From Paramacrobiotus metropolitanus (taxonomy: Eukaryota; Tardigrada; Eutardigrada; Parachela; Macrobiotidae), in the NCBI RefSeq assembly GCF_019649055.1, contig NW_026570455.1, positions 46,053 through 110,052 of the forward strand: 64,000 nt of DNA. Direction: 5' to 3'. Of the stretch, positions 30,373-55,800 are shown one piece after another. The stretch's first letter is position 1, and each line of letters starts with the position of its first letter. The notes under the pieces were generated by a model, which did not search any database, was not told the DNA's origin, and saw nothing but the letters and a program-made list of their open reading frames with translations. The position numbers were made by a program, and so were the translations under genes.

Positions 30373-33251
30373 CTCAGCTCTCTTCAAAGATTACGTTTCT
30401 AGATTTCCCTGACCCCTCTAATGATTTGAAATGAACACCAGCTTGTTCTTTAGGGCCAAAGAAGATTTCGAAATCTGGAGCGAAACATCCGGATGTTTCA
30501 AAAATATTGTTGTTGCTATTCGATTTTTGGGAATATCAGGGAAGAAACTGCTGACGGATTAAACAAAATGTCGTCAGATATAGTTAGCTCATCATTTAGA
30601 ACAAAAACAAAATTATTTATTTTCCTTGTCAATTTGTCACCTGTCTGTCAATTTGTCAGGCGCCTTTCAAATTGTCATTCAACCTGTAAACTTTGTTCAG
30701 CTCTCTTCAAGAATTACGTTTCTAGATTCCTTTGACGTATGTATTAGATTCCGTAAGCTCTTAAGCTAAAAAGGATTAAAGAAAATCTGTAAGCTCTTAA
30801 GCCAAAAAGGATTGTGAAATCTGTCGCGAAACATCCGGATGTTTCAAAAAGACTGTTGTTGGCACTCGATTTTTGGGAATATCATTGAAGAAACTGCTGA
30901 CGGATTAAATAAAAACTCGTCAAATATGATTAGCTTATCATTTAGAACAAAAACAAAATTATTTATTTTCCTTGTCAATTTGTCACCTGTCTGTCAATTT
31001 GTCAGGCGCCTTTCAAATTGTCATTCAACCTGTAAACTTTGTTCAGCTCTCTTCAAGAATTACGTTTCTAGATTCCTTTGACGTATGTATTAGATTCCGT
31101 AAGCTCTTAAGCTAAAAAGGATTAAAGAAAATCTGTAAGCTCTTAAGCCAAAAAGGATTGTAAAATCTGTCGCGAAACATCCGGATGTTTCAAAAAGACT
31201 GTTGTTGGCACTCGATTTTTGGGAATATCATTGAAGAAACTGCTGACGGATTAAATAAAAACTCGTCAAATATGATTAGCTTATCATTTAGAACAAAAAC
31301 AAAATTATTTATTTTCCTTGTCAATTTGTCACCTGTCTGTCAATTTGTCAGGCGCCTTTCAAATTGTCATTCAACCTGTAAACTTTGTTCAGCTCTCTCC
31401 AAGAATTACGTTTCTAGATTCCTTTGACGTATGTATTAGATTCCGTAAGCTCTTAAGCTAAAAGGATTAAAGAAAATCTGTAAGCTCTTAAGCCAAAAGG
31501 ATTGTGAAATCTGTCGCGAAACATCCGGATGTTTCAAAAGACTGTTGTTGGCACTCGATTTTTGGGAATATCATTGAAGAAACTGCTGACGGATTAAATA
31601 AAAACTCGTCAAATATGATTAGCTTATCATTTAGAACAAAACAAAATTATTTATTTTCCTTGTCAATTTGTCACCTGTCTGTCAATTTGTCAGGCGCCTT
31701 TCAAATTGTCATTCAACCTGTAAACTTTGTTCAGCTCTCTTCAAGAATTACGTTTCTAGATTCCTTTGACGTATGTATTAGATTCCGTAAGCTCTTAAGC
31801 TAAAAAGGATTAAAGAAAATCTGTAAGCTCTTAAGCCAAAAAGGATTGTAAAATCTGTCGCGAAACATCCGGATGTTTCAAAAAGACTGTTGTTGGCACT
31901 CGATTCTTGGGAATATCATTGAAGAAACTGCTGACGGATTAAATAAAAACTCGTCAAATATGATTAGCTTATCATTTAGAACAGAAACAAAATTATTTTT
32001 TTTCCTTGTCAATTTGTCACCTGTCTGTCAATTTGTCAGGCGCCTTTCAAATTGTCATTCAACCTGTAAACTTTGTTCAGCTCTCTTCAAGAATTACGTT
32101 CCTAGATTTCTTTGACGTATTTATTAGATTCCGTAAGCTCTTAAGCTAAAAAGGATTAAAGAATATCAGCAAGCTCCTAAGCCAAAAAGGATTTTGAATT
32201 CTGTCGCAAAACATCCTGATGTTTCAAAAAGACTGTTGTTGCCACTCGATTTTTAGGAATATCATTGAAGAAACTGCTGACGGATTAAATTTAAACTCGT
32301 CAAATATGATTAGCTTATCATTTAGAACAAAAACAAAATAATTTATTTTTCTTGTCAATTTGTCACCCGTCTGTCAATTTGTCAAGCGCCTTTCAAATTG
32401 TCATTCAACTTATAAACTTCGCTCAGCTCTCTTCACAGATTACGTTCGTAGATTCCTTTGACGTATTTATTAGATTCCGTTAGCTCTTAAGCTAAAAAGG
32501 ATGAAAGAAAATCAGTAAGCTCTTAAGCCAAAAAGGATTTCTGAAATCTGTCGCGAAACATCCGAAGGTTTCAAAAAGGCTGTTGTCGCCACTCAATTTT
32601 TTGGAATATCAGGGCAGCAACTGCTGACGGATTTAAGAAAAGATCGTCAAATTTAATTAGCTTATCATTTAGAACAAAAACAAAATTATTTATTTTCCTT
32701 GTCAATTTGTCACCTGTCTGTCAATTTGTCAGGCGCTTTTCAAATTGTCATTCAACCTGTAAACTTTGTTCAGCTCTCTTCAAGAATTACGTTTCTAGAT
32801 TCCTTTGACGTATGTATTAGATTCCGTAAGCTCTTAAGCTAAAAAGGATTAAAGAAAATCTGTAAGCTCTTAAGCCAAAAAGGATTGTGAAATCTGTCGC
32901 GAAACATCCGGATGTTTCAAAAAGACTGTTGTTGCCACTCGATTTTTTGGAATATCATTAAAGAAACTGCTGACGGAATAAATAAAAACTCGTCAAATAT
33001 GTTTAGCTTATCATTTAGAAGAAAAACAAAATAATTTATTTTTCTTGTCAATTTGTCACCTGTCTGTCAATTGGTCAGGCGCTTTCCTGATTCAACCTGT
33101 AAACTCCGCTCAGCTCTCTTTAAAGATTACGTTCCCAGATTCCTTTGACGTATTTATTGGATTCCGTAAGCTTTTAAGCTAGAAAGGATTAAAGAAAATC
33201 AGTAAGCTCTTAAGCCAAAAAAGATTTTGAAATCTGTCGCGAAATATCCGG
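30373..33251. repeat. Satellite zone 1: array edge, mainly class A monomers
   Basis: The first monomer (30373-30492) is partial and its linker (ATTTGAAATGAACACCAGC...) is a strongly diverged class B linker. Five very similar class A monomers follow at about 30493, 30839, 31185, 31529 and 31873. From about 32219 monomers become more diverged (for example CATCCTGATG instead of CATCCGGATG, and a monomer with a gap in the CAAATTGTCATT segment near 33080). Confidence 0.85.
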
Positions 33252-36200
33252 ATGTTTCAAAAAGACTGTTGTTGCCACTCGATTTTTGGGAATATCATTG
33301 AAGAAACTGCTGACGGATTAAATAAAAACTCGTCAAATATGATTAGCTTATCATTTAGAACAGAAACAAAATTATTTATTTTCCTTGTCAATTTGTCACC
33401 TGTCTGTCAATTTGTCAAGCGCCTTTTAAATTGTCATTCAACCTATAAACTTCGCTCAGCTTTCTTCACAGATTACGTTCGTAGATTCCTTTGACGTATT
33501 TAGTGTTTTGAAACAAAAACCAGTAGGTTCCTTTATGCTAAAAAGGATTTCTGAAATCTGTCGCAAAACATCCGGAGGTTTCAAAAAAGGGCTGTCGTCG
33601 CCACTCGATTTTTTGGAATATCAGGCAGCAACTGCTGACGGATTAAACATAAGATCGTCAAATTTAACCAGCTTATCATTTAGAACAAAAACAAAGTTAT
33701 TTATTTTCCTTGTCATTTTGTCACCTGTCTGTCAATTTGTCAGGCGCCTTTCAAATTGTCATTCTACCTGTAAACTTTGCTCAGCTCCCTTCAAAGATTA
33801 CGTTCCTAGCTTCTTTTGACGTATTTATTAGATTCAGTAAGCTCTTAAGCTAAAAAGGATTAAAGAACATCAGTAAGCTCTTAGGCCAAAAAGGATTTTG
33901 AAATCTGTCGCGAAATATCCGGATGTTTCAAAAAGACTGTTGTTGCCACTCGATTTCTGGGAATATCATTGAAGAAACTGCTGACGGATTAAATAAAAAC
34001 TCGTCAAATATGATTAGCTTATCATTTAGAACAGAAACAAAATTATTTATTTTCCTTGTCAATTTGTCACCTGTCTGTCAATTTGTCAAGCGCCTTTTAA
34101 ATTGTCATTCAACCTATAAACTTCGCTCAGCTTTCTTCACAGATTACGTTCGTAGATTCCTTTGACGTATTTAGTGTTTTGAAACAAAAACCAGTAGGTT
34201 CCTTTATGCTAAAAAGGATTTCTGAAATCTGTCGCAAAACATCCGGAGGTTTCAAAAAGAATGTTGTCGCCACTCGATTTTTTGGAATATCAGGCAGCAA
34301 CTGCTGACGGAATAAAGAAAAGATCGTCAAATTTAACTAGCTTATCATTTAGAACAAAAACAAAATTATTTATTTTCTTTGTCAATTTGTCACCCGTCTG
34401 TCAATTTGCCAAGCGCCTTTCAAGTTGTCATTCAACCTGTAAACTTTGCTCAGCTCTCTTCAAAGATTACGTTCCTAGATTCCTTTGACGTATTTATTAG
34501 ATTCCGTAAGCTCTTAAACTAAAAAGGATTAAAGAAAATCAGTAAGCTCTTAAGCCTAAAAAGGATTTCTGAAATCTGTCGCAAAACATCCGGAGGTTTC
34601 AAAAAAGGGCTGTCGTCGCCACTCGATTTTTTGGAATATCAGGCAGCAACTGCTGACGGATTAAACATAAGATCGTCAAACTTAACCAGCTTATCATTTA
34701 GAACAAAAACAAAGTTATTTATTTTCCTTGTCAATTTGTCACCTGTCTGTCAATTTGTCAGGCGCCTTTCAAATTGTCATTCTACCTGTAAACTTTGCTC
34801 AGCTCCCTTCAAAGATTACGTTCCTAGACTCCTTTGACGTAGTTATTAGATTCAGTAAGCTCTTAAGCTAAAAGGATTAAAGAACATCAGTAAGCTCTTA
34901 GGCCAAAAGGATTTTGAAATCTGTCGCGAAACATCCGGATGTTTCAAAAAGACTGTTGTTGCCACTCGATTTTTGGGAATATCATTGAAGAAACTGCTGA
35001 CGGATTAAATAAAAACTCGTCAAATATGATTAGCTTATCATTTAGAACAGAAACAAAATTATTTATTTTCCTTGTCAATTTGTCACCTGTCTGTCAATTT
35101 GGCAAGCGCCTTTTAAATTGTCATTCAACCTATAAACTTCGCTCAGCTTTCTTCACAGATTACGTTCGTAGATTCCTTTGACGTATTTAGTGTTTTGAAA
35201 CAAAAACCAGTAGGTTCCTTTATGCTAAAAAGGATTTCTGAAATCTGTCGCAAAACATCCGGAGGTTTCAAAAAGAATGTTGTCGCCACTCGATTTTTTG
35301 GAATATCAGGCAGCAACTGCTGACGGATTAAAGAAAAGATCGTCAAATTTAACTAGCTTATCATTTAGAACAAAAACAAAATTATTTATTTTCTTTGTCA
35401 ATTTGTCACCCGTCTGTCAATTTGTCAAGCGCCTTTCAAATTGTCATTCAACCTGTAAACTTTGCTCAGCTCTCTTCAAAGATTACGTTCCTAGATTCCT
35501 TTGACGTATTTATTAGATTCCGTAAGCTCTTAAACTAAAAAGGATTAAAGAAAATCAGTAAGCTCTTAAGCCAAAAAAGATTTTGTAATCTGTCGCGAAA
35601 CATCCGGATGTTTCAAAAAGAATGTTGTCGCCACTCGATTTTTTGGAATATCAGGCAGCAACTGCTGACGGATTAAAGAAAAGATCGTCAAATTTAACTA
35701 GCTTATCATTTAGAACAAAAACAAAATTATTTATTTTTCTTGTCAATTTGTCACCCGTCTGTCAATTTGTCAGGCGCCTTTCAAATTGTCATTCAACCTG
35801 TAAACTCTGCTCAGCTCTCTTCAAAGATTACGTTCCTAGATTCCTTTGATGTATTTATTGGATTCCGTAAGCTCTTAAGCTAAAAAGGATTAAAGAGAAT
35901 CAGTAAGCTCTTAAGCCAAAAAGGATTTTGAAATATGTCGCGAAACATCCGGATGTTTCAAAAAGAATGTTGTCGCCACTCGATTTTTTGGAATATCAGG
36001 GCAGCAACTGCTGACGGATTAAAGAAAAGATCGTCAAATTTAACTAGCTTATCATTTAGAACAAAAACAAAATTATTTATTTTCCTTGTCAATTTGTCAC
36101 CTGTCTGTCAATTTGTCAGGCGCCTTTCAAATTGTCATTCTACCTGTAAACTTTGCTCAGCTCCCTTCAAAGATTACGTTCCTAGCTTCCTTTTGACGTA

Positions 36201-39200
36201 TTTATTAGATTCCGGTAAGCTCTTAAGCTAAAAGGATTAAAGAACATCAGTAAGCTCTTAGGCCAAAAGGATTTTGAAATCTGTCGCGAAACATCCGGAT
36301 GTTTCAAAAGACTGTTGTTGCCACTCGATTATTGGGAACATCATTGAAGAAACTGCTGACAGATTAAACAAAAGATCGTCAAATATGATTAGCTTATCAT
36401 TTAGAACAGAAACAAAATTATTTATTTTCCTTGTCAATTTGTCACCTGTCTGTCAATTTGTCAAGCGCCTTTTAAATTGTCATTCAACCTATAAACTTCG
36501 CTCAGCTTTCTTCACAGATTACGTTCGTAGATTCCTTTGACGTATTTAGTGTTTTGAAACAAAAACCAGTAGGTTCCTTTATGCTAAAAAGGATTTCTGA
36601 AATCTGTCGCAAAACATCCGGAGGTTTCAAAAAGGGCTGTCGTCGCCACTCGATTTTTTGGAATATCAGGCAGCAACTGCTGACGGATTAAACATAAGAT
36701 CGTCAAATTTAACCAGCTTATCATTTAGAACAAAAACAAAGTTACTTATTTTCCTTGTCATTTTGTCACCTGTCTGTCAATTTGTCAGGCGCCTTTCAAA
36801 TTGTCATTCAACCTGTAAACTTTGCTCAGCTCTCTTCAAAGATTACGTTCCTAGATTCTTTTGACGTATTTATTAGATTCCGTAAGTTCTTAAGCTAAAA
36901 GGATTAAAGAAAATCAGTAAGCTCTTAAGCCAAAAAGGATTTTGAAATCTGTCGCGAAACATCCGGATGTTTCAAAAAGACTGTTGTTGCCACTCGATTT
37001 TTGGGAATATCATTGAAGAAACTGCTGACGGATTAAATAAAAACTCGTCAAATATGATTAGCTTATCATTTAGAACAAAAACAAAATTATTTATTTTCCT
37101 TGTCAATTTGTCACCCGTCTGTCAATTTGTCAAGCGCCTTTCAAATTGTCATTCAACCTATAAACTTCGCTCAGCTCTCTTCACAGATTACGTTCGTAGA
37201 TTCCTTTGACGTATTTAGTGTTTTGAAATAAAAACCAGTAGGTTCCTTTATGCTAAAAAGGATTTCTGAAATCTGTCGCAAAACATCCGGAGGTTTCAAA
37301 AAGACTGTTGTCGCCACTCGATTTTTTGGAATATCAGGCAGCAACTGCTGACGGATTAAAGAAAAGATCGTCAAATTTAACTAGCTTATCATTTAGAACA
37401 AAAACAAAATTATTTATTTTCTTTGTCAATTTGTCACCCGTCTGTCAATTTGCCAAGCGCCTTTCAAGTTGTCATTCAACCTGTAAACTTTGCTCAGCTC
37501 TCTTCAAAGATTACGTTCCTAGATTCCTTTGACGTATTTATTAGATTCCGTAAGCTCTTAAACTAAAAAGGATTAAAGAAAATCAGTAAGCTCTTAAGCC
37601 TAAAAAGGATTTCTGAAATCTGTCGCAAAACATCCGGAGGTTTCAAAAAAGGGCTGTCGTCGCCACTCGATTTTTTGGAATATCAGGCAGCAACTGCTGA
37701 CGGATTAAACATAAGATCGTCAAATTTAACCAGCTTATCATTTAGAACAAAAACAAAGTTATTTATTTTCCTTGTCAATTTGTCACCTGTCTGTCAATTT
37801 GTCAGGCGCCTTTCAAATTGTCATTCTACCTGTAAACTTTGCTCAGCTCCCTTCAAAGATTACGTTCCTAGCTTCTTTTGACGTATTTATTAGATTCAGT
37901 AAGCTCTTAAGCTAAAAAGGATTAAAGAACATCAGTAAGCTCTTAGGCCAAAAGGATTTTGAAATCTGTCGCGAAATATCCGGATGTTTCAAAAGACTGT
38001 TGTTGCCACTCGATTTTTGGGAATATCAGGCAGAAACTGCTGACGGATTAAATAAAAATCGTCAAATATGATTAGCTTATCATTTAGAACAGAAACAAAA
38101 TAATTTATTTTTCTTGTCAATTTGTCACCTGTCTGTCAATTTGTCAAGCGCCTTTCAAATTGTCATTCAACCTATAAACTTCGCTCAGCTCTCTTCACAG
38201 ATTACGTTCGTAGATTCCTTTGACGTATTCAGTGTTTTGAAACAAAAACCAGTAGGTTCTTTTATGCTAAAAAGGATTTCTGAAATCTGTCGCGAAACAT
38301 CCGGAGGTTTCAAAAGAATGTTGTCGCCACTCGATTTTTTGGAATATCAGGCAGCAACTGCTGACGGATTAAAGAAAAGATCGTCAAATTTAATTAGCTT
38401 ATCATTTAGAACAAAAACAAAATTATTTATTTTTCTTGTCAATTTGTCACCCGTCTGTCAATTTGTCAAGCGCCTTTCAAATTGTCATTCAACCTGTAAA
38501 CTTTGCTCAGCTCTCTTCAAAGATTACGTTCCTAGATTCCTTTGACGTATTTATTAGATTCCGTAAGCTCTTAAGCTAAAAAGGATTAAAGAAAATCAGT
38601 AAGCTCTTAAGCCAAAAAAGATTTTGTAATCTGTCGCGAAACATCCGGATGTTTCAAAAAGAATGTTGTCGCCACTCGATTTTTTGGAATATCAGGCAGC
38701 AACTGCTGACGGATTAAAGAAAAGATCGTCAAATTTAACCAGCTTATCATTTAGAACAAAAACAAAGTTATTTATTTTCCTTGTCAATTTGTCACCTGTC
38801 TGTCAATTTGTCAGGCGCCTTTCAAATTGTCATTCAACCTGTAAACTTTGCTCAGCTCTCTTCAAAGATTACGTTCCTAGATTCCTTTGACGTATTTATT
38901 AGATTCCGTAAGCTCTTAAGCTAAAAAGGGTTAAAGAAAATCAGCAAGCTCTTAAGCCAAAAGGATTTTGAAATCTGTCGCGAAACATCCGGATGTTTCA
39001 AAGAATATTGTCGCCACTCGATTTTTTGGAATATCAGGCAGCAACTGCTGACGGATTAAACAAAAGATCGTCAAATTTAATTAGCTTATCATTTAGAACA
39101 AAAACAAAATTATTTATTTTCCTTGTCAATTTGTCACCTGTCTGTCAATTTGTCAGGCGCCTTTCAAATTGTCATTCAACCTGTAAACTTTGCTCAGCTC

Positions 39201-39341
39201 TCTTCAAAGATTACGTTCCTAGATTCCTTTGACGTATTTATTAGATTCCGTAAGCTCTTAAGCTAAAAAGGATTAAAGAAAATCAGTAAGCTCTTAAGCC
39301 AAAAAGGATTTTGAAATCTGTCGCGAAACATCCGGATGTTT
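33252..39341. repeat. Satellite zone 2: two copies of a nine-monomer higher-order repeat of about 3,045 bp
   Basis: Class B linkers occur at about 33505, 34173, 35189, 36546, 37217, 38227 and 39585. The intervals are about 668, 1016, 1357, 671, 1010 and 1358, that is 2, 3, 4, 2, 3, 4 monomers. Diagnostic variants repeat with the same period: the AAACATAAGATCG variant at 33613/36658 and 34631/37675, and the AAAGAATGTTGTCGCC variant at 35277/38318 and 35622/38663. Three B (324) plus six A (346) predict 3,048 bp, agreeing with the observed spacing. Confidence 0.85.
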
Positions 39342-42300
39342 CAAAAAGACTGTTGTTGCCACTCGATTTTTAGGAATATCATTGAAGAAACTGCTGACGG
39401 AATAAATTAAAACTCGTCGAATATAATTAGCTTATCATTTAGAACAGAAACAAAATTATTTATTTTCCTTGTCAATTTGTCACCTGTCTGTCAATTTGTC
39501 AAGCGCCTTTTAAATTGTCATTCAACCTGTAAACTTCGCTCAGCTCTCTTCACAGATTACGTTCGTAGATTCCTTTGACGTATTTAGTGTTTTGAAACAA
39601 ATACCAGTAGGTTCCTTTATGCTAAAAAGGATTTCTGAAATCTGTCGCAAAACATCCGGAGGTTTCAAAAAGAATGTTGTCGCCACTCGATTTTTTGGAA
39701 TATCAGGCAGCAACTGCTGACGGATTAAAGAAAAGATCGTCAAATTTAACTAGCTTATCATTTAGAACAAAAACAAAATTATTTATTTTCTTTGTCAATT
39801 TGTCACCCGTCTGTCAATTTGCCAAGCGCCTTTCAAGTTGTCATTCAACCTGTAAACTTTGCTCAGCTCTCTTCAAAGATTACGTTCCTAGATTCCTTTG
39901 ACGTATTTATTAGATTCCGTAAGCTCTTAAGCTAAAAAGGATTAAAGAAAATCAGTAAGCTCTTAAGCCAAAAAGGATTTTGAAATCTGTCGCGAAACAT
40001 CCGGATGTTTCAAAAAGGCTGTTGTCGCCACTCGATTTTTTGGAATATCAGGCAGCAACTGCTGACGGATTAAAGAAAAGATCGTCAAATTTAACCAGCT
40101 TATCATTTAGAACAAAAACAAAGTTATTTATTTTCCTTGTCAATTTGTCACCTGTCTGTCAATTTGTCAGGCGCCTTTCAAATTGTCATTCAACCTGTAA
40201 ACTCTGCTCAGCTCTCTTCAAAGATTACGTTCCTAGATTCCTTTGATGTATTTATTGGATTCCATAAGCTCTTAAGCTAAAAAGGATTAAAGAGAATCAG
40301 TAAGCTCTTAAGCCAAAAAGGATTTTGAAATATGTCGCGAAACATCCGGATGTTTCAAAAAGACTGTTGTCGCCACTCGATTTTTTGGAATATCAGGGCA
40401 GCAACTGCTGACGGATTAAACAAAAGATCGTCAAATTTAATTAGCTTATCATTTAGAACAAAAACAAAATTATTTATTTTCCTTGTCAATTTGTCACCCG
40501 TCTGTCAATTTGTCAAGCGCCTTTTAAATTGTCATTCAACCTGTAAACTTTGCTCAGCTCTCTTCAAAGATTACGTTCGTAGATTCCTTTGACGTATTTA
40601 GTGTTTTGAAACAAAACCAATAGATTCCTTTATGCTAAAGGGATTTCTGAAATCTGTCGCGAAACATCCGGAGGTTTCAAAAGACTGTCGTCGCCACTCG
40701 ATTTTTTGGAATATCAGGCAGCAACTGCTGACGGATTAAACAAAAGATCGTCAAATTTAACCAGCTTATCATTTAGAACAAAAACAAAATTATTTATTTT
40801 CCTTGTCATTTGTCACCTGTCTGTCAATTTGTCAGGCGCCTTTCAAATTGTCATTCAACCTGTAAACTTTGCTCAGCTCTCTCAAAGATTACGTTCCTAG
40901 ATTCCTTTGACGTATTTATTAGATTCCGTAAGCTCTTAAGCTAAAAAGGATTTAAGAAAATCAGTAAGCTCTTAAGCCAGAAAGGATTTTGAAATCTGTC
41001 GCGAAACATCCGGATGTTTCAAAAAGACTGTTGTTGCCACTCGATTTTTAGGAATATCATTGAAGAAACTGCTGACGGATTAAATAAAAACTCGTCAAAT
41101 ATGATTAGCTTATCATTTAGAACAAAAACAAAATTATTTATTTTCCTTGTCAATTTGTCACCTGTCTGTCAATTTGTCAGGCGCCTTTCAAATTGTCTTT
41201 CAACCTGTAAACTTTGCTCAGCTCTCCTCACAGATTACGTTCGTAGATTCCTTTGACGTATTTAGTGTTTTGAAACAAAACCAGTAGATTCCTTTATGCT
41301 AAAAGGATTTCTGAAATCTGTCGCGAAACATCCGGAGGTTTCAAAAAGGGCTGTCGTCGCCACTCGATTTTTTGGAATATCAGGCAGCAACTGCTGACGG
41401 ATTAAACATAAGATCGTCAAATTTAACCAGCTTATCAGTTAGAACAAAAACAAAGTTACTTATTTTCCTTGTCATTTTGTCACCTGTCTGTCAATTTGTC
41501 AGGCGCCTTTCAAATTGTCTTTCAACCTGTAAACTTTGCTCAGCTCTCCTCAAAGATTACGTCCCTAGATTCCTTTGACGTAGTTATTAGATTCCGTAAG
41601 CTCTTAAGCTAAAAAGGATTTAAGAAAATCAGTAAGCTCTTAAGCCAGAAAGGATTTTGAAATCTGTCGCGAAACATCCGGATGTTTCAAAAAGACTGTT
41701 GTTGCCACTCGATTTTTAGGAATATCATTGAAGAAACTGCTGACGGAATAAATTAAAACTCGTCAAATATAGTTAGCTTATCATTTAGAACAAAAACAAA
41801 ATTATTTATTTTCCTTGTCAATTTGTCACCCGTCTGTCAATTTGTCAAGCGCCTTTCAAATTGTCGTTCAACCTATAAACTTCGCTCAGCTCTCTTCACA
41901 GATTACGTTCGTAGATTCCTTTGACGTATTTAGTGTTTTGAAATAAAAACCAGTAGGTTCCTTTATGCTAAAAAGGATTTCTGAAATCTGTCGCAAAACA
42001 TCCGGAGGTTTCAAAAAGGGCTGTCGTCGCCACTCGATTTTTTGGAATATCAGGCAGCAACTGCTGACGGATTAAACATAAGATCGTCAAATTTAACCAG
42101 CTTATCATTTAGAACAAAAACAAAGTTATTTATTTTCCTTGTCAATTTGTCACCTGTCTGTCAATTTGTCAGGCGCCTTTCAAATTGTCATTCTACCTGT
42201 AAACTTTGCTCAGCTCCCTTCAAAGATTACGTCCCTAGATTCCTTTGACGTAGTTATTAGATTCCGTAAGCTCTTAAGCTAAAAAGGATTTAAGAAAATC

Positions 42301-42900
42301 AGTAAGCTCTTAAGCCAAAAAGATTTTGAAATCTGTCGCGAAACATCCGGATGTTTCAAAAAGAATGTTGTCGCCACTCGATTTTTTGGAATATCAGGCA
42401 GCAACTGCTGACGGATTAAACAAAAGATCGTCAAATTTAATCAGCTTATCATTTAGAACAAAAACAAAGTTATTTATTTTCCTTGTCAATTTGTCACCTG
42501 TCTGTCAATTTGTCAGGCGCCTTTCAAATTGTCATTCAACCTGTAAACTTTGCTCAGCTCTCTTCAAGGATTACGTTCCTAGATTCCTTTGACGTATATT
42601 TTAAATTCCGTAGGCTCTTAAGCTAAAAAGGATTAAAGAAAATCAGTTAGCTCTTAAGCCAAAAAGGATTTTGAAATCTTTCGCGAAACATCCGGATGTT
42701 TCAAAAAGACTGTTGTCGCCACTCGATTTTTTGGAATATCAGGCAGCAACTGCTGACGGATTAAAGAAAAGATCGTCAAATTTAACCAGCTTATCATTTA
42801 GAACAAAAACAAAGTTATTTATTTTCCTTGTCAATTTGTCACCTGTCTGTCAATTTGTCAGGCGCCTTTCAAATTGTCATTCAACCTGTAAACTTTGCTC
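39342..42900. repeat. Satellite zone 3: irregular A/B alternation
   Basis: Class B linkers at about 39585, 40598, 41264, 41934 and 42940 give intervals of 3, 2, 2 and 3 monomers, breaking the 2-3-4 pattern of zone 2. Several variants of zone 2 reappear here (for example ATATGTCGCGAAAC at 35935 and 40332), so the zone is probably a rearranged derivative. Confidence 0.75.
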
Positions 42901-45900
42901 AGCTCTCTTCAAGGATTACGTTCGTAGATTCCTTTGACGTATTTATTGTTTTGAAACAAAAACCAGTAGGTTCCTTTATGCTAAAAAGGATTTCTGAAAT
43001 CTGTCGCGAAACATCCGGAGGTTTCAAAAGGCTGTTGTCGCCACTCGATTTTTGGAATATCAGGGCAGCTACTGCTGACGGATTAAACAAAAGATCGTCA
43101 AATTTAATCAGCTTATCATTTAGAACAAAAACAGAATTATTTATTTTCCTTGTCAGTTTGTCACCTGTCTGTCAATTTGTCAGGCGCCTTTCAAATTGTC
43201 GTTCAACCTGTAAACTTTGCTCAGCTCTCTTCAAGGATTACGTTCGTAGATTCCTTTGACGTATTTAGTGTTTTGAAACAAAACCAGTAGGTTCCTTTAT
43301 GCTAAAAAGATTTCTGACATCTGTCGCGAAACATCCGGAGGTTTCAAAAGGCTGTTGTCGCCACTCGATTTTTTGGAATATCAGGGCAGCAACTGCTGAC
43401 GGATTAAGCAAAAATCGTCAAATTTAATCAGCTTATCATTTAGAACAAAACAGAATTATTTATTTTCCTTGTCAATTTGTCACCTGTCTGTCAATTTGTC
43501 AGGCGCCTTTCAAATTGTCATTCAACCTGTAAACTTTGCTCAGCTCTCTTCAAGGATTACGTTCGTAGATTCCTTTGACGTATTTAGTGTTTTGAAACAA
43601 AACCAGTAGGTTCCTTTATGCTAAAAAGGATTTCTGACATCTGTCGCGAAACATCCGGAGGTTTCAAAAAGACTGTTGCCGCCACTCGATTTTTTGGAAT
43701 ATCAGGGCAGCAACTGCTGACGGATTAAACAAAAGATCGTCAAATTTAATCAGCTTATCATTTAGAACAAAAACAAAATTATTTATTTTCCTTGTCAATT
43801 TGTCACCTGTCTGTCAATTTGTCAGGCGCCTTTCAAATTGTCATTCAACCTGTAAACTTTGCTCAGCTCTCTTCAAGGATTACGTTCGTAGATTCCTTTG
43901 ACGTATTTATTGTTTTGAAACGAAAACCAGTAGGTTCCTTTATGCTAAAAAGGATTTCTGACATCTGTCGCGAAACATCCGGAGGTTTCAAAAAGACTGT
44001 TGCCGCCACTCGATTTTTTGGAATATCAGGGCAGCAACTGCTGACGGATTAAACAAAAGATCGTCAAATTTAATCAGCTTATCATTTAGAACAAAAACAA
44101 AATTATTTATTTTCCTTGTCAATTTGTCACCTGTCTGTCAATTTGTCAGGCGCCTTTCAAATTGTCATTCAACCTGTAAACTTTGCTCAGCTCTCTTCAA
44201 GGATTACGTTCGTAGATTCCTTTGACGTATTTAGTGTTTTGAAACAAAACCAGTAGGTTCCTTTATGCTAAAAGGATTTCTGAAATCTGTCGCGAAACAT
44301 CCGGAGGTTTCAAAAGGCTGTTGTCGCCACTCGATTTTTTGGAATATCAGGGCAGCAACTGCTGACGGATTAAACAAAAATCGTCAAATTTAATCAGCTT
44401 ATCATTTAGAACAAAAACAGAATTATTTGTTTTCCTTGTCAATTTGTCACCTGTCTGTCAATTTGTCAGGCGCCTTTCAAATTGTCATTCAACCTGTAAA
44501 CTTTGCTCAGCTCTCTTCAAGGATTACGTTCGTAGATTCCTTTGACGTATTTAGTGTTTTGAAACAAAACCAGTAGGTTCCTTTATGCTAAAAGAATTTC
44601 TGACATCTGTCGCGAAACATCCGGAGGTTTCAAAAAGACTGTTGCCGCCACTCGATTTTTTGGAATATCAGGGCAGCAACTGCTGACGGATTAAACAAAA
44701 GATCGTCAAATTTAATCAGGTTATCATTTAGAACAAAAACAGAATTATTTATTTTCCTTGTCAGTTTGTCACCTGTCTGTCAATTTGTCAGGCGCCTTTC
44801 AAATTGTCATTCAACCTGTAAACTTGCTCAGCTCTCTTCAAGGATTACGTTTGTAGATTCCTTTGACGTATTTAGTGTTTTGAATTTTGAAACAAAAACC
44901 AGTTTTGGAATATCAGGGCAGCAACTGCTGACGGATTAAACAAAAGATCGTCAAATTTAATCAGCTTATCATTTAGAACAAAAACAGAATTATTTGTTTT
45001 CCTTGTCAGTTTGTCACCTGTCTGTCAATTTGTCAGGCGCCTTTCAAATTTTCATTCAACCTGTAAACTTTGCTCAGCTCTCTTCAAGGATTACGTTCGT
45101 AGATTCCTCTGACGTATTTAGTGTTTTGAAACAAAAACCAGTAGGTTCCTTTATGCTAAAAAGGATTTCTGACATCTGTCGCGAAACATCCGGAGGTTTC
45201 AAAAAGACTGTTGCCGCCACTCGATTTTTTGGAATATCAGGGCAGCAACTGCTGACGGATTAAACAAAAGATCGTCAAATTTAATCAGCTTATCATTTAG
45301 AACAAAAACAGAATTATTTATTTTTCTTGTCAGTTTGTCACCTGTCTGTCAATTTGTCAGGCGCCTTTCAAATTGTCATTCAACCTGTAAACTTTGCTCA
45401 GCTCTCTTCAAGGATTACGTTCGTAGATTCCTCTGACGTATTTAGTGTTTTGAAACAAAAACCAGTAGGTTCCTTTATGCTAAAAAGGATTTCTGACATC
45501 TGTCGCGAAACATCCGGAGGTTTTAAAAAGACTGTTGCCGCCACTCGATTTTTTGGAATATCAGGGCAGCAACTGCTGACGGATTAAACAAAAGATCGTC
45601 AAATTTAATCAGCTTATCATTTTGAACAAAAACAAAGTTATTTATTTTCCTTGTCAATTTGTCACCTGTCTGTCAATTTGTCAGGCGCCTTTCAAATTGT
45701 CATTCAACCTGTAAACTTTGCTCAGCTCTCTTCAAGGATTACGTTCGTAGATTCCTTTGACTTATTTAGTGTTTTGAAACAAAAACCAGTAGGTTCCTTT
45801 ATGCTAAAAAGGATTTCTGACATCTGTCGCGAAACATCCGGAGGTTTCAAAAAGACTGTTGCCGCCACTCGATTTTTTGGAATATCAGGGCAGCAACTGC

Positions 45901-48900
45901 TGACGGATTAAACAAAAGATCGTCAAATTTAATCAGCTTATCATTTAGAACAAAAACAGAATTATTTATTTTCCTTGTCAGTTTGTCACCTGTCTGTCAA
46001 TTTGTCAGGCGCCTTTCAAATTGTCATTCAACCTGTAAACTTTGCTCAGCTCTCTTCAAGGATTACGTTTGTAGATTCCTTTGACGTATTTAGTGTTTTG
46101 AAACAAAACCAGTAGGTTCCTTTATGCTAAAAGGATTTCTGAAATCTGTCGCGAAACATCCGGAGGTTTCAAAAAGACTGTTGTCGCCACTCGATTTTTT
46201 GGAATATCAGGGCAGCAACTGCTGACGGATTAAACAAAAGATCGTCAAATTTAATCAGCTTATCATTTAGAACAAAAACAAAATTATTTATTTTCCTTGT
46301 CAATTTGTCACCTGTCTGTCAATTTGTCAGGCGCCTTTCAAATTGTCATTCAACCTGTAAACTTTGCTCAGCTCTCTTCAAGGATTACGTTCGTAGATTC
46401 CTTTGACGTATTTAGTGTTTTGAAACAAAAACCAGTAGGTTCCTTTATGCTAAAAAGGATTTCTGACATCTGTCGCGAAACATCCGGAGGTTTCAAAAAG
46501 ACTGTTGCCGCCACTCGATTTTTTGGAATATCAGGGCAGCAACTGCTGACGGATTAAACATAAGATCGTCAAATTTAATCAGCTTATCATTTAGAACAAA
46601 AACAAAGTTATTTATTTTCCTTGTCAATTTGTCACCTGTCTGTCAATTTGTCAGGCGCCTTTCAAATTGTCATTCAACCTGTAAACTTTGCTCAGCTCTC
46701 TTCAAGGATTACGTTCGTAGATTCCTTTGACGTATTTAGTGTTTTGAAACAAAAACCAGTAGGTTCCTTTATGCTAAAAAGGATTTCTGACATCTGTCGC
46801 GAAACATCCGGAGGTTTCAAAAAGACTGTTGCCGCCACTCGATTTTTTGGAATATCAGGGCAGCAACTGCTGACGGATTAAACATAAGATCGTCAAATTT
46901 AATCAGCTTATCATTTAGAACAAAAACAGAATTATTTATTTTCCTTGTCAGTTTGTCACCTGTCTGTCAATTTGTCAGGCGCCTTTCAAATTGTCATTCA
47001 ACCTGTAAACTTTGCTCAGCTCTCTTCAAGGATTACGTTCGTAGATTCCTTTGACGTATTTAGTGTTTTGAAACAAAACCAGTAGGTTCCTTTATGCTAA
47101 AAGGATTTCTGACATCTGTCGCGAAACATCCGGAGGTTTCAAAAAGACTGTTGCCGCCACTCGATTTTTTGGAATATCAGGGCAGCAACTGCTGACGGAT
47201 TAAACAAAAGATCGTCAAATTTAATCAGCTTATCATTTAGAACAAAAACAGAATTATTTATTTCCCTTGTCAGTTTGTCACCTGTCTGTCAATTTGTCAG
47301 GCGCCTTTCAAATTGTCATTCAACCTGTAAACTTTGCTCAGCTCTCTTCAAGGATTACGTTCGTAGATTCCTTTGACGTATTTAGTGTTTTGAAACAAAA
47401 CCAGTAGGTTCCTTTATGCTAAAAGGATTTCTGACATCTGTCGCGAAACATCCGGAGGTTTCAAAAGACTGTTGCCGCCACTCGATTTTTTTGGAATATC
47501 AGGGCAGCAACTGCTGACGGATTAAACAAAAGATCGTCAAATTTAATCAGCTTATCATTTAGAACAAAAACAAAATTATTTATTTTCCTTGTCAATTTGT
47601 CACCTGTCTGTCAATTTGTCAGGCGCCTTTCAAATTGTCATTCAACCTGTAAACCTTGCTCAGCTCTCTTCAAGGATTACGTTCGTAGATTCCTTTGACG
47701 TATTTAGTGTTTTGAAACAAAACCAGTAGGTTCCTTTATGCTAAAAGGATTTCTGACATCTGTCGCGAAACATCCGGAGGTTTCAAAAGACTGTTGCCGC
47801 CACTCGATTTTTTTGGAATATCAGGGCAGCAACTGCTGACGGATTAAACAAAAGATCGTCAAATTTAATCAGCTTATCATTTAGAACAAAAACAAAATTA
47901 TTTATTTTCCTTGTCAATTTGTCACCTGTCTGTCAATTTGTCAGGCGCCTTTCAAATTGTCATTCAACCTGTAAACTTTGCTCAGCTCTCTTCAAGGATT
48001 ACGTTCGTAGATTCCTTTGACGTATTTAGTGTTTTGAAACAAAACCAGTAGGTTCCTTTATGCTAAAAGGATTTCTGACATCTGTCGCGAAACATCCGGA
48101 GGTTTTAAAAGACTGTTGCCGCCACTCGATTTTTTTGGAATATCAGGGCAGCAACTGCTGACGGATTAAACAAAAGATCGTCAAATTTAATCAGCTTATC
48201 ATTTAGAACAAAAACAAAGTTATTTATTTTCCTTGTCAATTTGTCACCTGTCTGTCAATTTGTCAGGCGCCTTTCAAATTGTCATTCAACCTGTAAACTT
48301 TGCTCAGCTCTCTTCAAGGATTACGTTCGTAGATTCCTTTGACGTATTTAGTGTTTTGAAACAAAAACCAGTAGGTTCCTTTATGCTGAAAAGGATTTCT
48401 GAAATCTGTCGCGAAACATCCGGAGGTTTCAAAAGGCTGTTGTCGCCACTCGATTTTTTGGAATATCAGGGCAGCAACTGCTGACGGATTAAGCAAAAAT
48501 CGTCAAATTTAATCAGCTTATCATTTAGAACAAAAACAGAATTATTTATTTTCCTTGTCAATTTGTCACCTGTCTGTCAATTTGTCAGGCGCCTTTCAAA
48601 TTGTCATTCAACCTGTAAACTTTGCTCAGCTCTCTTCAAGGATTACGTTCGTAGATTCCTTTGACGTATTTAGTGTTTTGAAACAAAAACCAGTAGGTTC
48701 CTTTATGCTGAAAAGGATTTCTGAAATCTGTCGCGAAACATCCGGAGGTTTCAAAAGGCTGTTGTCGCCACTCGATTTTTTTGAATATCAGGGCAGCAAC
48801 TGCTGACGGATTAAGCAAAAATCGTCAAATTTAATCAGCTTATCATTTAGAACAAAAACAAAATTATTTATTTTCCTTGTCAATTTGTCACCTGTCTGTC

Positions 48901-51900
48901 AATTTGTCAGGCGCCTTTCAAATTGTCATTCAACCTGTAAACTTTGCTCAGCTCTCTTCAAGGATTACGTTCGTAGATTCCTTTGACGTATTTATTGTTT
49001 TGAAACAAAACCAGTAGGTTCCTTTATGCTAAAAGGATTTCTGACATCTGTCGCGAAACATCCGGAGGTTTCAAAAGACTGTTGCCGCCACTCGATTTTT
49101 GGAATATCAGGGCAGCAACTGCTGACGGATTAAACAAAAGATCGTCAAATTTAATCAGCTTATCATTTAGAACAAAACAGAATTATTTATTTCCCTTGTC
49201 AGTTTGTCACCTGTCTGTCAATTTGTCAGGCGCCTTTCAAATTGTCATTCAACCTGTAAACTTTGCTCAGCTCTCTTCAAGGATTACGTTCGTAGATTCC
49301 TTTGAAGTATTTAGTGTTTTGAAACAAAAACCAGTAGGTTCCTTTATGCTAAAAAAGGATTTCTGACATCTGTCGCGAAACATCCGGAGGTTTCAAAAGA
49401 CTGTTGCCGCCACTCGATTTTTTGAATATCAGGGCAGCAACTGCTGACGGATTAAACAAAAGATCGTCAAATTTAATCAGCTTATCATTTAGAACAAAAA
49501 CAAAGTTATTTATTTTCCTTGTCAATTTGTCACCTGTCTGTCAATTTGTCAGGCGCCTTTCAAATTGTCATTCAACCTGTAAACTTTGCTCAGCTCTCTT
49601 CAAGGATTACGTTCGTAGATTCCTTTGACGTATTTAGTGTTTTGAAACAAAAACCAGTAGGTTCCTTTATGCTAAAAAGGATTTCTGACATCTGTCGCGA
49701 AACATCCGGAGGTTTCAAAAAGACTGTTGCCGCTACTCGATTTTTTGGAGTATCAGGGCAGCAACTGCTGACGGATTAAACATAAGATCGTCACATTTAA
49801 TCAGCTTATCATTTAGAACAAAAACAGAATTATTTATTTTCCTTGTCAGTTTGTCACCTGTCTGTCAATTTGTCAGGCGCCTTTCAAATTGTCATTCAAC
49901 CTGTAAACTTTGCTCAGCTCTCTTCAAGGATTACGTTCGTAGATTCCTTTGACGTATTTAGTGTTTTGAAACAAAAACCAGTAGGTTCCTTTATGCTAAA
50001 AAGGATTTCTGACATCTGTCGCGAAACATCCGGAGGTTTCAAAAAGACTGTTGCCGCCACTCGATTTTTTGGAATATCAGGGCAGCAACTGCTGACGGAT
50101 TAAACAAAAGATCGTCAAATTTAATCAGCTTATCATTTAGAACAAAAACAGAATTATTTATTTCCCTTGTCAGTTTGTCACCTGTCTGTCAATTTGTCAG
50201 GCGCCTTTCAAATTGTCATTCAACCTGTAAACTTTGCTCAGCTCTCTTCAAGGATTACGTTCGTAGATTCTTTTGACGTATTTAGTGTTTTGAAACAAAA
50301 CCAGTAGGTTCCTTTATGCTAAAAGGATTTCTGACATCTGTCGCGAAACATCCGGAGGTTTCAAAAGACTGTTGCCGCCACTCGATTTTTTTGAATATCA
50401 GTGCAGCAACTGCTGACGGATTAAACATAAGATCGTCAAATTTAATGAGCTTATCATTTAAACAAAAACAGAATTATTTATTTTCCTTGTCAATTTGTCA
50501 CCTGTCTGTCAATTTGTCAGGCGCCTTTCAAATTGTCATTCAACCTGTAAACTTTGCTCAGCTCTCTTCAAGGATTACGTTCGTAGATTCCTTTGACGTA
50601 TTTAGTGTTTTGAAAAAAAAACCAGTAGGTTCCTTTATGCTAAAAGGATTTCTGACATCTGTCGCGAAAAACATCCGGAGGTTTCAAAAGACTGTTGCCG
50701 CCACTCGATTTTTTGGAATATCAGGGCAGCAACTGCTGACGGATTAAACAAAAGATCGTCAAATTTAATCAGCTTATCATTTAGAACAAAAACAAAATTA
50801 TTTATTTTCCTTGTCAATTTGTCACCTGTCTGTCAATTTGTCAGGCGCCTTTCAAATTGTCATTCAACCTGTAAACTTTGCTCAGCTCTCTTCAAGGATT
50901 ACGTTCGTAGATTCTTTTGACGTATTTAGTGTTTTGAAACAAAACCAGTAGGTTCCTTTATGCTAAAAGGATTTCTGACATCTGTCGCGAAACATCCGGA
51001 GGTTTCAAAAGACTGTTGCCGCCACTCGATTTTTGGAATATCAGGGCAGCAACTGCTGACGGATTAAACAAAAGATCGTCAAATTTAATCAGCTTATCAT
51101 TTAGAACAAAAACAGAATTATTTATTTTCCTTGTCAGTTTGTCACCTGTCTGTCAATTTGTCAGGCGCCTTTCAAATTGTCATTCAACCTGTAAACTTTG
51201 CTCAGCTCTCTTCAAGGATTACGTTCGTAGATTCCTTTGACGTATTTAGTGTTTTGAAACAAAAACCAGTAGGTTCCTTTATGCTAAAAAGGATTTCTGA
51301 CATCTGTCGCGAAACATCCGGAGGTTTCAAAAAGACTGTTGCCGCCACTCGATTTTTTGGAATATCAGGGCAGCAACTGCTGACGGATTAAACAAAAGAT
51401 CGTCAAATTTAATCAGCTTATCATTTAGAACAAAAACAGAATTATTTATTTTCCTTGTCAATTTGTCACCTGTCTGTCAATTTGTCAGGCGCCTTTCAAA
51501 TTGTCATTCAACCTGTAAACTTTGCTCAGCTCTCTTCAAGGATTACGTTCGTAGATTCCTTTGACGTATTTAGTGTTTTGAAACAAAAACCAGTAGGTTC
51601 CTTTATGCTAAAAAGGATTTCTGACATCTGTCGCGAAACATCCGGAGGTTTCAAAAAGGCTGTTGCCGCCACTCGATTTTTTGGAATATCAGGGCAGCAA
51701 CTGCTGACGGATTAAACATAAGATCGTCAAATTTAATCAGCTTATCATTTAGAACAAAACAAAGTTATTTATTTTCCTTGTCAATTTGTCACCTGTCTGT
51801 CAATTTGTCAGGCGCCTTTCAAATTGTCATTCAACCTGTAAACTTTGCTCAGCTCTCTTCAAGGATTACGTTCGTAGATTCCTTTGACGTATTTAGTGTT

Positions 51901-52850
51901 TTGAAACAAAACCAGTAGGTTCCTTTATGCTAAAAGGATTTCTGACATCTGTCGCGAAACATCCGGAGGTTTCAAAAGACTGTTGCCGCCACTCGATTTT
52001 TTGGAATATCAGGGCAGCAACTGCTGACGGATTAAAAAAAAGATCGTCAAATTTAATTAGCTTATCATTTAGAACAAAAACAAAATTATTTATTTTCCTT
52101 GTCAATTTGTCACCTGTCTGTCAATTTGTCAGGCGCCTTTCAAATTGTCATTCAACCTGTAAACTTTGCTCAGCTCTCTTCAAGGATTACGTTCATGATT
52201 CCTTTGACGTATTTAGTGTTTTGAAACAAAACCAGTAGGTTCCTTTATGCTAAAAAGGATTTCTGACATCTGTCGCGAAACATCCGGAGGTTTCAAAAGA
52301 CTGTTGCCGCCACTCGATTTTTTGGAATATCAGGGCAGCAACTGCTGACGGATTAAACAAAAGATCGTCAAATTTAATCAGCTTATCATTTAGAACAAAA
52401 ACAGAATTATTTATTTTCCTTGTCAATTTGTCACCTGTCTGTCAATTTGTCAGGCGCCTTTCAAATTGTCATTCAACCTGTAAACTTTGCTCAGCTCTCT
52501 TCAAGGATTACGTTCGTAGATTCCTTTGACGTATTTAGTGTTTTGAAACAAAAACCAGTAGGTTCCTTTATGCTAAAAAGGATTTCTGACATCTGTCGCG
52601 AAACATCCGGAGGTTTCAAAAAGGCTGTTGCCGCCACTCGATTTTTTGGAATATCGGGGCAGCAACTGCTGACGGATTAAACAAAAGATCGTTAAATTCA
52701 ATTAGCTTATCATTTAGAACAAAAACAGAATTATTTATTTTCCTTGTCAATTTGTCACCTGTCTGTCAATTTGTCAGGCGCCTTTCAAATTGTCATTCAA
52801 CCTGTAAACTTTGCTCAGCTCTCTTCAAGGATTACGGTCCTAGATTCCTT
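42901..52850. repeat. Satellite zone 4: nearly pure class B block, about 31 monomers
   Basis: Every linker in this zone is of the GTGTTTTGAAACAAAACC type, and spacing is 322-324 bp apart from one shortened monomer near 44900. Monomers are very alike; most differences are one-base changes in A or T runs and a few shared variants (GTTGCCGCC versus GTTGTCGCC, ACAGAATT versus ACAAAATT). This indicates recent amplification of single B monomers or short blocks. Confidence 0.85.
44880..44935. repeat. Deletion scar inside one satellite monomer
   Basis: After GTGTTTTGAATTTTGAAACA the monomer jumps from AAAACCAG directly to TTTTGGAATATCAGGG. The distance between the flanking CCTGTCTGTC motifs is 245 bp instead of 324, so about 79 bp are missing net, with seven bases added upstream. 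Confidence 0.85.
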
Positions 52851-55800
52851 TGACGTATATTTTAGATTCCGTAAGCTCTTAAGCTAAAAGGATTAAAGAA
52901 AATCAGTAAGCTCTTAAGCCAAAAAGGATTTCTGAAATCTGTCGCGAAACATCCGGAGGTTTCAAAAGGCTGTTGTCGCCACTCGATTTTTTAGAATATC
53001 AGGGCAGCAACTGCTGACGGATTAAACAAAAGGACGTCAAATTCATTAAGCTTATCATTTAGAACAAAAACAAAATTATTGATTTTCCTTGTCAATTTGT
53101 CACCTGTCTGTCAATTTGTCAGGCGCCTTTCAAGTTGTCATTCAACCTGTAAACTTTGCTGAGCTCTCTTCAAGGATTACGTTGCAGATTCCTTTGACGT
53201 ATTTATTGTTTTGAAACAAAACCAGTAGGTTCCTTTATGCTAAAAGGATTTCTGAAATCTGTCGCGAAACATCCGGAGGTTTCAAAAGGCTGTTGTCGCC
53301 ACTCGATTTTTTGAATATCAGGGCAGCAACTGCTGACGGATTAAACAAAAGATCGTCAAATTTAATCAGCTTATCATTTAGAACAAAAACAAATTATTTA
53401 TTTTCCTTGTCAATTTGTCACCTGTCTGTCAATTTGTCAGGCGCCTTTCAAATTGTCATTCAACCTGTAAACTTTGCTCAGCTCTCTTCAAGGATTACGT
53501 TCTAGATTCCTTTGACGTATATTTTTAGATTCCTTTGACGTATATTCCGTAAGTTCTGCTTAAAAGGATTAAAGAAAATCAGTAAGCTCTTAAGCCAAAA
53601 AGGATTTCTGAAATCTGTCGCGAAACATCCGGAGGTTTCAAAAGGCTGTTGTCGCCACTCGACTTTTTGGAATATCAGGGCAGCAACTGCTGACGGATTA
53701 AACAAAAGATCGTCAAATTTAATCAGCTTATCATTTAGAACAAAAACAGAATTATTTATTTTCCTTGTCAATTTGTCACCTGTCTGTCAATTTGTCAGGC
53801 GCCTTTCAAATTGTCATTCAACCTGTAAACTTTGCTCAGCTCTCTTCAAGGATTACGTTCGTAGATTCCTTTGACGTATTTAGTGTTTTGAAACAAAAAC
53901 CAGTAGGTTCCTTTATGCTAAAAAGGATTTCTGAAATCTGTCGCGAAACATCCGGAGGTTTCAAAAGGCTGTTGTCGCCACTCGATTTTTTGGAATATCA
54001 GGGCAGCAACTGCTGACGGATTAAGCAAAAATCGTCAAATTTAATCAGCTTATCATTTAGAACAAAAACAGAATTATTTATTTTCCTTGTCAATTTGTCA
54101 CCTGTCTGTCAATTTGTCAGGCGCCTTTCAAATTGTCATTCAACCTGTAAACTTTGCTCAGCTCTCTTCAAGGATTACGTTCCTAGATTCCTTTGACGTA
54201 TTTATTGGATTCCGTAAGCTCTTAAGCCAAAAGGATTAAAGAAAATCAGCAAGCTCTAAGCCAAAAGGATTTTGAAATCTGTCGCGAAACATCCGGTGTT
54301 TCAAAAGGCTGTTGTCGCCACTCGATTTTTTGGAATATCAGGGCAACTGCTGACGGATTAAACAAAAGATCGTCAAATTTAATCAGCTTATCATTTAGAA
54401 CAAAAACAGAATTATTTATTTTCCTTGTCAATTTGTCACCTGTCTGTCAATTTGTCAGGCGCCTTTCAAATTGTCATTCAACCTGTAAACTTTGCTCAGC
54501 TCTCTTCAAGGATTACGTTCCTAGATTCCTTTGACGTATTTTTAGATTCCGTGCTTTAAGCTAAAAAAGGATTAAAGAAAATCAGTAAGCTCTTAAGCCA
54601 AAAAGGATTTCTGAGATCTGTCGCGAAACATCCGGAGGTTTCAAAAAGGCTGTTGTCGCCACTCGATTTTTTGGAATATCAGGGCAGCAACTGCTGACGG
54701 ATTAAACAAAAGATCGTCAAATTTAATCAGCTTATCATTTAGAACAAAAACAAAGTTATTTATTTTCCTTGTCAATTTGTCACCTGTCTGTCAATTTGTC
54801 AGGCGCCTTTCAAATTGTCATTCAACCTGTAAACTTTGCTCAGCTCTCTTCAAGGATTACGTTCCTAGATTCCTTTGACGTATATTTTAAATTCCGTAGG
54901 CTCTTAAGCTAAAAAGGATTAAAGAAAATCAGTTAGCTCTTAAGCCAAAAAGGATTTTGAAATCTTTCGCGAAACATCCGGATGTTTCAAAAAGACTGTT
55001 GTCGCCACTCGATTTTTTGGAATATCAGAGCAGCAACTGCTGACGGATTAAAGAAAAGATCGTCAAATTCAATTAGCTTATCTTTTAGAACAAAAACAAA
55101 AATTATTTATTTTCCTTGTCAATTTGTCACCTGTCTGTCAATTTGTCAGGCGCCTTTCAAATTGTCATACAACCTGTAAACTTTGCTCAGCTCTTTTCAA
55201 GGATTACGTTTGTAGATTCCTTTGACGTATTTATTGTTTTGAAACAAAAACCAGTAGGTTCCTTTATGCTAAAAAGGATTTCTGAAATCTGTCGCGAAAC
55301 ATCCGGAGGTTTCAAAAAGGCTTTTGTCGCCACTCGATTTTTTGGAATATCAGCGCAGCAACTGCTGACGGATTAAAGAAACGATCGTCAAATTCAATTA
55401 GTTTATCTTTTAAAACCAAAACAAAATTATTTATTTTCCTTGTCAATTTGTCACCTGTCTGTCAATTTGTCAGGCGCCTTTCAAATTGTCATTCAACCTG
55501 TAAACTTTGCTCAGCTCTCTTCAAAGGATTACGTTCCTAGATTCCTTTGACGTATATTTTAGACTCCGTAAGCTCTTAAGCTAAAAAGGATTAAAGAAAA
55601 TCAGTAAGCTCTTAAGCCAAAAAGGATTTCTGAAATCTGTCGCGAAACATCCGGAGGTTTCAAAAGGCTGTTGTCGCCACTCGATTTTTTGGAATATCAG
55701 GGCAGCAACTGCTGACGGATTAAACAAAAGATCGTCAAATTTAATCAGCTTATCATTTAGAACAAAAACAAAATTATTTATTTTCCTTGTCAATTTGTCA

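Follow-up and report, generated by a model that had tools for sequence, protein, structure and literature searches.

A nine-monomer block present twice, and two sequence blocks shared with related arrays, in a satellite of Paramacrobiotus metropolitanus

Does a satellite array of the tardigrade Paramacrobiotus metropolitanus hold a true higher-order repeat, or the trace of one duplication? The window analysed here is a stretch of 64,000 nucleotides (bases 46053-110052 of contig C235, which has 110,052 bases, in an assembly of 169.8 Mb and 533 contigs). A satellite array runs into the contig end, which is the last base of the window, and an initial annotation had described a nine-monomer higher-order repeat within it. 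Our analysis indicates that, very probably, one tandem duplication of a nine-monomer segment (about 3.04 kb) arose in a mosaic array by out-of-register exchange and was later patchily overwritten. The array also shares two short conserved blocks with other satellites of the same genome.

Two copies of nine monomers

Monomers were delimited by successive AGCTTATCATTTAGAA anchors, four of which were located by a looser search. No anchor was found on the opposite strand of the array, all 100 monomers (m0 to m99) lying on the same strand, and this long head-to-tail array of similar, non-coding monomers is satellite DNA. By their linkers, 48 monomers belong to class A (about 345 bp) and 51 to class B (about 323 bp), and one is shortened (245 bp). 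The mid region served as a second marker, with forms X and Y. Together the two markers gave 14 AX, 34 AY and 51 BY monomers and one unclassed, and BX did not occur among the 100 monomers.

The class B monomers of the first mixed domain are m8, m10, m13, m17, m19, m22, m26, m29, m31 and m33, followed by m36, with gaps of 2, 3, 4, 2, 3, 4, 3, 2, 2 and 3. Both the classes and the 2-3-4-2-3-4 spacing of class B that had been annotated from 33.3 to 39.4 kb were borne out, and the annotated coordinates (33252-39341) agree with the block limits in Table 1. When m8-m16 were compared with m17-m25, the identities of the pairs nine apart (lag 9) were 0.9969, 0.9682, 0.9783, 0.9971, 0.9652, 0.969, 0.9884, 0.9507 and 0.9397. 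Mean identity was 0.973 for these nine pairs and 0.923 for the next nine (m17-m25 against m26-m34). As predicted from the annotation, monomers nine apart were the more alike: none of 5000 permutations that kept class A or B, not the finer type, reached the value of the nine named pairs.

Aligned base by base, the two blocks showed 70 differences in 2,900 bases between 33.4 and 36.3 kb (2.4 per 100), and in the flanks there were 7-12 differences per 100 bases at 32.9 to 33.3 kb and 12 at 36.3-36.4 kb. The edges are blurred in places: counts ranged from 2 to 19 further left and from 1 to 18 further right, with some low stretches. The two-copy relation and its rough limits are observed directly in this alignment.

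Haplotypes read with two extra markers, T/C before the palindrome described below and T/G inside it, followed the same order in both blocks. The first block reads BCGY, AT?X, BCGY, ACGY, ATTX, BCGY, ATTY, ATTY, ATTX and the second BCGY, ATTX, BCGY, ACGY, AT?Y, BCGY, ATTY, ATTY, ATTX, where a question mark denotes a marker unread by the pattern. Eight of nine positions agree, m9/m18 being matched at the three markers read, and the blocks differ by one monomer type (m12 is AX, m21 is AY). ACGY is carried by just three monomers of m0-m35, and each block has one of them (m11 and m20).

A haplotypes were also ordered within each train, meaning a B monomer and the A monomers after it. BA trains carry AX; BAA trains carry ACGY and then AX (AY in the second block); and BAAA trains carry ATTY, ATTY and AX. 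The last A was AX in five of the six trains of both blocks, the sixth (m21) being AY. All seven AX monomers of m8-m35 precede a B (P 0.0011 when AX and AY labels were shuffled), and two of the ten B monomers come after AY. As AX stands at the ends of trains and always before B, the unit is better described as a run of AX-BY pairs, separated from one another by zero to two AY monomers.

Duplication or higher-order repeat

A higher-order repeat has two marks: monomers n apart are more alike than others of their class, and the unit recurs in tandem as a homogenised unit beyond one duplication. Greater likeness was found for the nine named pairs and was weaker over the whole mixed block. Recurrence beyond one duplication was not seen, as no third copy of the block was found among the 100 assembled monomers. 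Upstream, m0-m7 are all class A, and downstream m26-m34 mismatch m17-m25 in class at three of nine positions; one tandem duplication is therefore the best reading of the block. From the initial annotation, unequal exchange and a unit of nine monomers are thus supported, and a higher-order repeat array, with two copies among the assembled monomers, is not.

It is unlikely that the unit recurs many times in the unassembled remainder of the array, which would make it a true higher-order repeat. The array is cut by the contig end, so unseen copies are possible, and related arrays contain composite units (a 495-bp unit in 9.5 copies on contig C19 and a 647-bp dimer period on C175). Against this, the two copies lie close to where the array starts on the left, some 24 kb short of the contig end, and nine-step order is missing from the flanking domains and from those beyond.

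Several observations weigh against the single duplication. The order of A and B is weak evidence by itself: an immediately repeated gap triple appeared in 10% of gap shuffles (in letter shuffles, a repeated triple in 3.7% and the exact 2-3-4-2-3-4 in 0.006%). Among same-class monomers of m8-m35, just three of the nine lag-9 pairs were reciprocal best matches (m8/m17, m11/m20 and m14/m23), and m15/m24 and m16/m25 ranked 5th to 7th. Because part of the lag-9 excess reflects finer type, the fair contrast for the 2.4% divergence of the blocks is about 4-5% (3.7-5.2% between monomers of the same finer type), not the 6.4% of A-A pairs. Mean identities of same-type pairs were 0.963 for BY, 0.955 for AX, 0.959 for ATTY and 0.948 for AY. 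Six of eight type-matched lag-9 pairs exceeded the mean of their own type; those below it were m16/m25 (AX) and m15/m24 (compared with ATTY). Over the whole mixed block lag 9 gave P 0.0054, yet in 29% of permutations one or other of lags 1 to 15 reached as high a value, and lag 13 outscored lag 9 (mean z 1.07 over 6 pairs against 0.62 over 15). The lag-13 likeness appears between m26-m28 and m13-m15, at identities of 0.977-0.988.

Short shared words gave a mixed picture. Variants annotated as private, with a period of about 3,041-3,046 bp, were not private: the 25-mers at 33613, 34631, 35277 and 35622 were found 18, 18, 7 and 7 times in the array, a count that would miss a variant slightly outside the 25-mer, and the one at 35277 is not identical to that at 38318. 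Among 57 17-mers that occur exactly twice in the array with both sites in 33-40 kb, 32 recur at lag 9, in two runs (34541-34571 and 35570-35602), and 19 at lag 12. The lag-12 17-mers and the lag-13 likeness need further exchanges beyond one duplication, which also counts against it.

That the duplication arose by unequal exchange, that conversion made it patchy and in what order the events occurred are inferences. Exchanges between AX-type and BY-type repeats would have made the mosaic. An out-of-register breakpoint in the long region common to A and B, which holds the 32-bp box described below, would leave AX and BY as neighbours, and one between linker and mid region would yield AY recombinants (ACGY or ATTY). 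A further out-of-register exchange may then have copied nine monomers, and conversion or small exchanges may afterwards have overwritten the blocks in patches. Such later events are suggested by the patchy identity and by best partners at lags 3 and 13; as a further point on the other side, the differences are mildly clustered (variance to mean 1.58) and conversion is unproved. The array contains another multi-monomer self-match (53920-56249 with 55619-57941, 96.1%), and the nine-monomer duplication is ordinary satellite behaviour by an ordinary mechanism.

Growth by successive local duplications, in which A monomers were added to give B-A, B-A-A and B-A-A-A, had been proposed in the initial annotation and is very unlikely. 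The number of A monomers does climb 1, 2, 3 within the unit, and the BAAA train has ATTY at both of its inserted A positions. Neighbouring A monomers, however, did not resemble each other more closely than other A pairs did: in the first mixed domain, eight adjacent A-A pairs had an identity of 0.934, compared with 0.936 for all A-A pairs, and four adjacent pairs of ATTY, the commonest inserted type, had 0.956 compared with 0.960 for 24 others. Moreover, the insert of the BAA train is of a different haplotype, ACGY, and the gaps past the second block are 3, 2, 2 and 3. An old doubling of A monomers, blurred by later divergence, is possible.

False duplication by the assembler is a concern in a hard repeat such as this satellite array, within which the contig stops, and this too tells against a real duplication. 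We consider such an artefact highly improbable, as the copies differ by the 70 changes counted above and by one monomer type. A chance order of A and B without any segmental copy, for which the repeated triples of the gap shuffles speak, can be set aside given the base-level likeness, the four-marker order and the drop in divergence along the block.

Sequence blocks shared with related arrays

Related satellites were found on seven other contigs: C24 (346 bp), C78 (323 bp), C75 and C175 (324 bp), C56 and C19 (about 495 bp), and C51, which is known from box matches and periods alone and has no consensus. The arrays on C235 and C51 touch a contig end and matches on C75 come to within 3 kb of one, as expected because arrays break an assembly. 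Shared 20-mers recur at long periods of 3323 bp on C56, 4979 bp on C51 and 1654 bp on C19, which may reflect duplications, and beside these the nine-monomer block looks unexceptional. Box spacings near 172, 323 and 345 bp on C51 and C56, with the 495-bp unit of C19, suggest that these three arrays are a mosaic of half-length and full-length units. On C24, one monomer (locus L006, 3889-3931) carries a short inverted copy, gctagcaacgtaatct, of directly adjoining sequence, which probably explains a 365-bp spacing there.

Eight consensuses were aligned, two from the window and six from other contigs (C24, C78, C75, C175, C56 and C19). All six of the latter hold the same two blocks in the same order, and several have multi-unit periods. 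Outside both blocks, likeness to the two window consensuses was 90-91% for C24, 77-79% for C78 and 53-61% for C75, C175, C56 and C19; inside them these last four were 83-94% like the window. The blocks were picked on the alignment that yields these identities, which are thus descriptive, and the column shuffle is the test. In column shuffles of six of the eight consensuses, the palindrome gave P 0.0004 for the best 18-bp window, and for the box 0 of 5000 shuffles reached the best 32-bp window. Results were weaker at other window sizes (palindrome at 32 bp, P 0.08; box at 18 bp, P 0.008 and 0.057).

The first block is a 32-bp direct-repeat box of two TGTCAATTTGTCA 13-mers, 19 bp apart, and its pattern TGTCAATTTGTCANCYGTMTGTCAATTTGTCA fits seven of eight consensuses, the first half being worn in C19. 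The second is a palindrome, AAACATCCGGATGTTT, of 18 bp at its longest. It is perfect over 18 bp in three of eight consensuses (window A, C75 and C175) and over the inner 16 bp in three (C78, C56 and C19), and is broken by one base in two (window B and C24). Perfect copies occur in 20 of 48 A and 0 of 51 B monomers of the window; as the remaining monomers, apart from the shortened one, depart from it by one or two edits, the palindrome is not strictly kept in this array. In the assembly the exact 18-bp palindrome was found at 158 sites (reversed control, 0) and the box pattern in 276 and 101 matches on the two strands (control, 0); places were inspected for about the first 100 matches listed for each. 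Folding of single-stranded DNA at 30700-30790 (no palindrome) and 33540-33600 (broken form) showed nothing unusual and does not test the palindrome.

In all eight comparisons within arrays, box and palindrome varied less than the sequence around them. The window-array box was extreme (0.7% of windows were as low), and the other seven comparisons ranged from 6% to 34%. For these counts, intervals outside 280-370 bp were dropped, including false second hits 19 bp off, which kept 60 of 66 for C75, 53 of 79 for C175 and 13 of 13 for C24. Low variation supports constraint on the blocks but is not proof of it.

Both blocks may be protein-binding sites. We propose, tentatively and with considerable doubt, that box and palindrome form a two-part protein-binding module, like the CENP-B box in working and unrelated to it in sequence, which would be kept in centromeric or heterochromatic satellites as the remaining monomer sequence changes; bound units, those whose palindrome is intact (part of class A), would then alternate with unbound ones, in which it is broken (class B). 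A CENP-B box, as given by its 17-bp consensus, was not found in the window consensuses, the best match being 11 of 17 in both (shuffled means 10.5 and 10.6), and the CENP-B core pattern was absent from all eight consensuses. C56 reached 13 of 17, compared with a maximum of 12 in 200 shuffles.

The satellites of the nematodes Meloidogyne chitwoodi and M. fallax have a Box 1, described as CENP-B-box-like, and a Box 2 in monomers of 169-180 bp (PMC3694981). Of the systems compared, these boxed satellites with their higher-order repeats are the best parallel: there too, diverged satellites of one genome keep two short blocks, and simple and composite (higher-order) arrays stand side by side (PMC3694981). 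They differ in that monomers here are 323-346 bp (with 495-bp composites elsewhere in the genome), that a direct repeat and a palindrome make up the two blocks of the present genome, and that the higher-order repeat there recurs as a tandem unit, whereas the nine-monomer block occurs twice (PMC3694981). The present genome likewise has short blocks that are kept where its satellites otherwise diverge, as the column shuffles indicate. In primate alpha satellite, higher-order units of several monomers also come from segmental duplication in a head-to-tail satellite. Alpha-satellite higher-order repeats recur many times at 1-2% divergence. The present block, in contrast, has two copies at 2.4%, and the window consensuses are without a CENP-B box. 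In the parts of the open-access literature available, searches on motif strings, boxed or palindromic satellites and invertebrate higher-order repeats found no description of this satellite or its motifs, and a search on tardigrade satellites gave nothing relevant.

The array in its surroundings

Table 1. Positions of the array, its domains and examples of the two conserved blocks within the window
Feature	Position	Strand	Details
Satellite array	30455..64000; monomers cut 30586 to 63780	+	100 complete monomers; Tandem Repeats Finder (TRF) and anchors; ends with the contig
A-only domain, m0-m7	30586..33344	+	7 AX, 1 AY
First nine-monomer block, m8-m16	33345..36390	+	B x B a x B a a x (x = AX, a = AY, B = BY); 3,046 bp
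Second nine-monomer block, m17-m25	36391..39428	+	B x B a a B a a x (same symbols); 3,038 bp
Mixed A/B stretch, m26-m35	39429..42787	+	Without nine-step order (B gaps 3, 2, 2, 3)
B domain, m36-m66	42788..52703	+	30 B and one shortened monomer; mean identity 0.974
Second mixed domain, m67-m99	52704..63780	+	22 AY, 11 BY, no AX; without 2-3-4 order
32-bp box, example	33386..33417	+	Two TGTCAATTTGTCA; letters checked
Perfect 18-bp palindrome, example	34928..34945	+	GAAACATCCGGATGTTTC; letters checked

Monomers of the B domain have a mean identity of 97.4%, compared with 93.8% in the A-only domain, and the B domain is perhaps the more recent expansion. The shortened monomer (44718-44962) has a linker of neither class and no recognisable palindrome. 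Four frames of 143-180 amino acids lie inside the array. To its left, frames at 20898-22391 and 29437-29817 match reverse transcriptase (PF00078) and its RNase H-like domain (PF17919, PF17917). No Rfam matches were found in the window, and the exact telomere patterns TTAGG, TTAGGG, TTAGGC and GATGGGTTTT gave no match. Nor did a search for the COX1 family, whereas contig C184 holds an 18S stretch that looks metazoan.

The initial annotation of this locus thus largely holds: it was right in substance, and its label, a higher-order repeat for what reads as a single duplication, was too strong. The nine-monomer block may show, in readable form, how a higher-order repeat begins: a single segmental copy in which the A/B and X/Y markers reveal where exchanges fell. 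The shared blocks are of more interest than the nine-monomer block and are a lead worth following. Should they prove to bind protein, sequence-dependent selection on satellites could be tested directly with them, in an animal array where no CENP-B box was seen.

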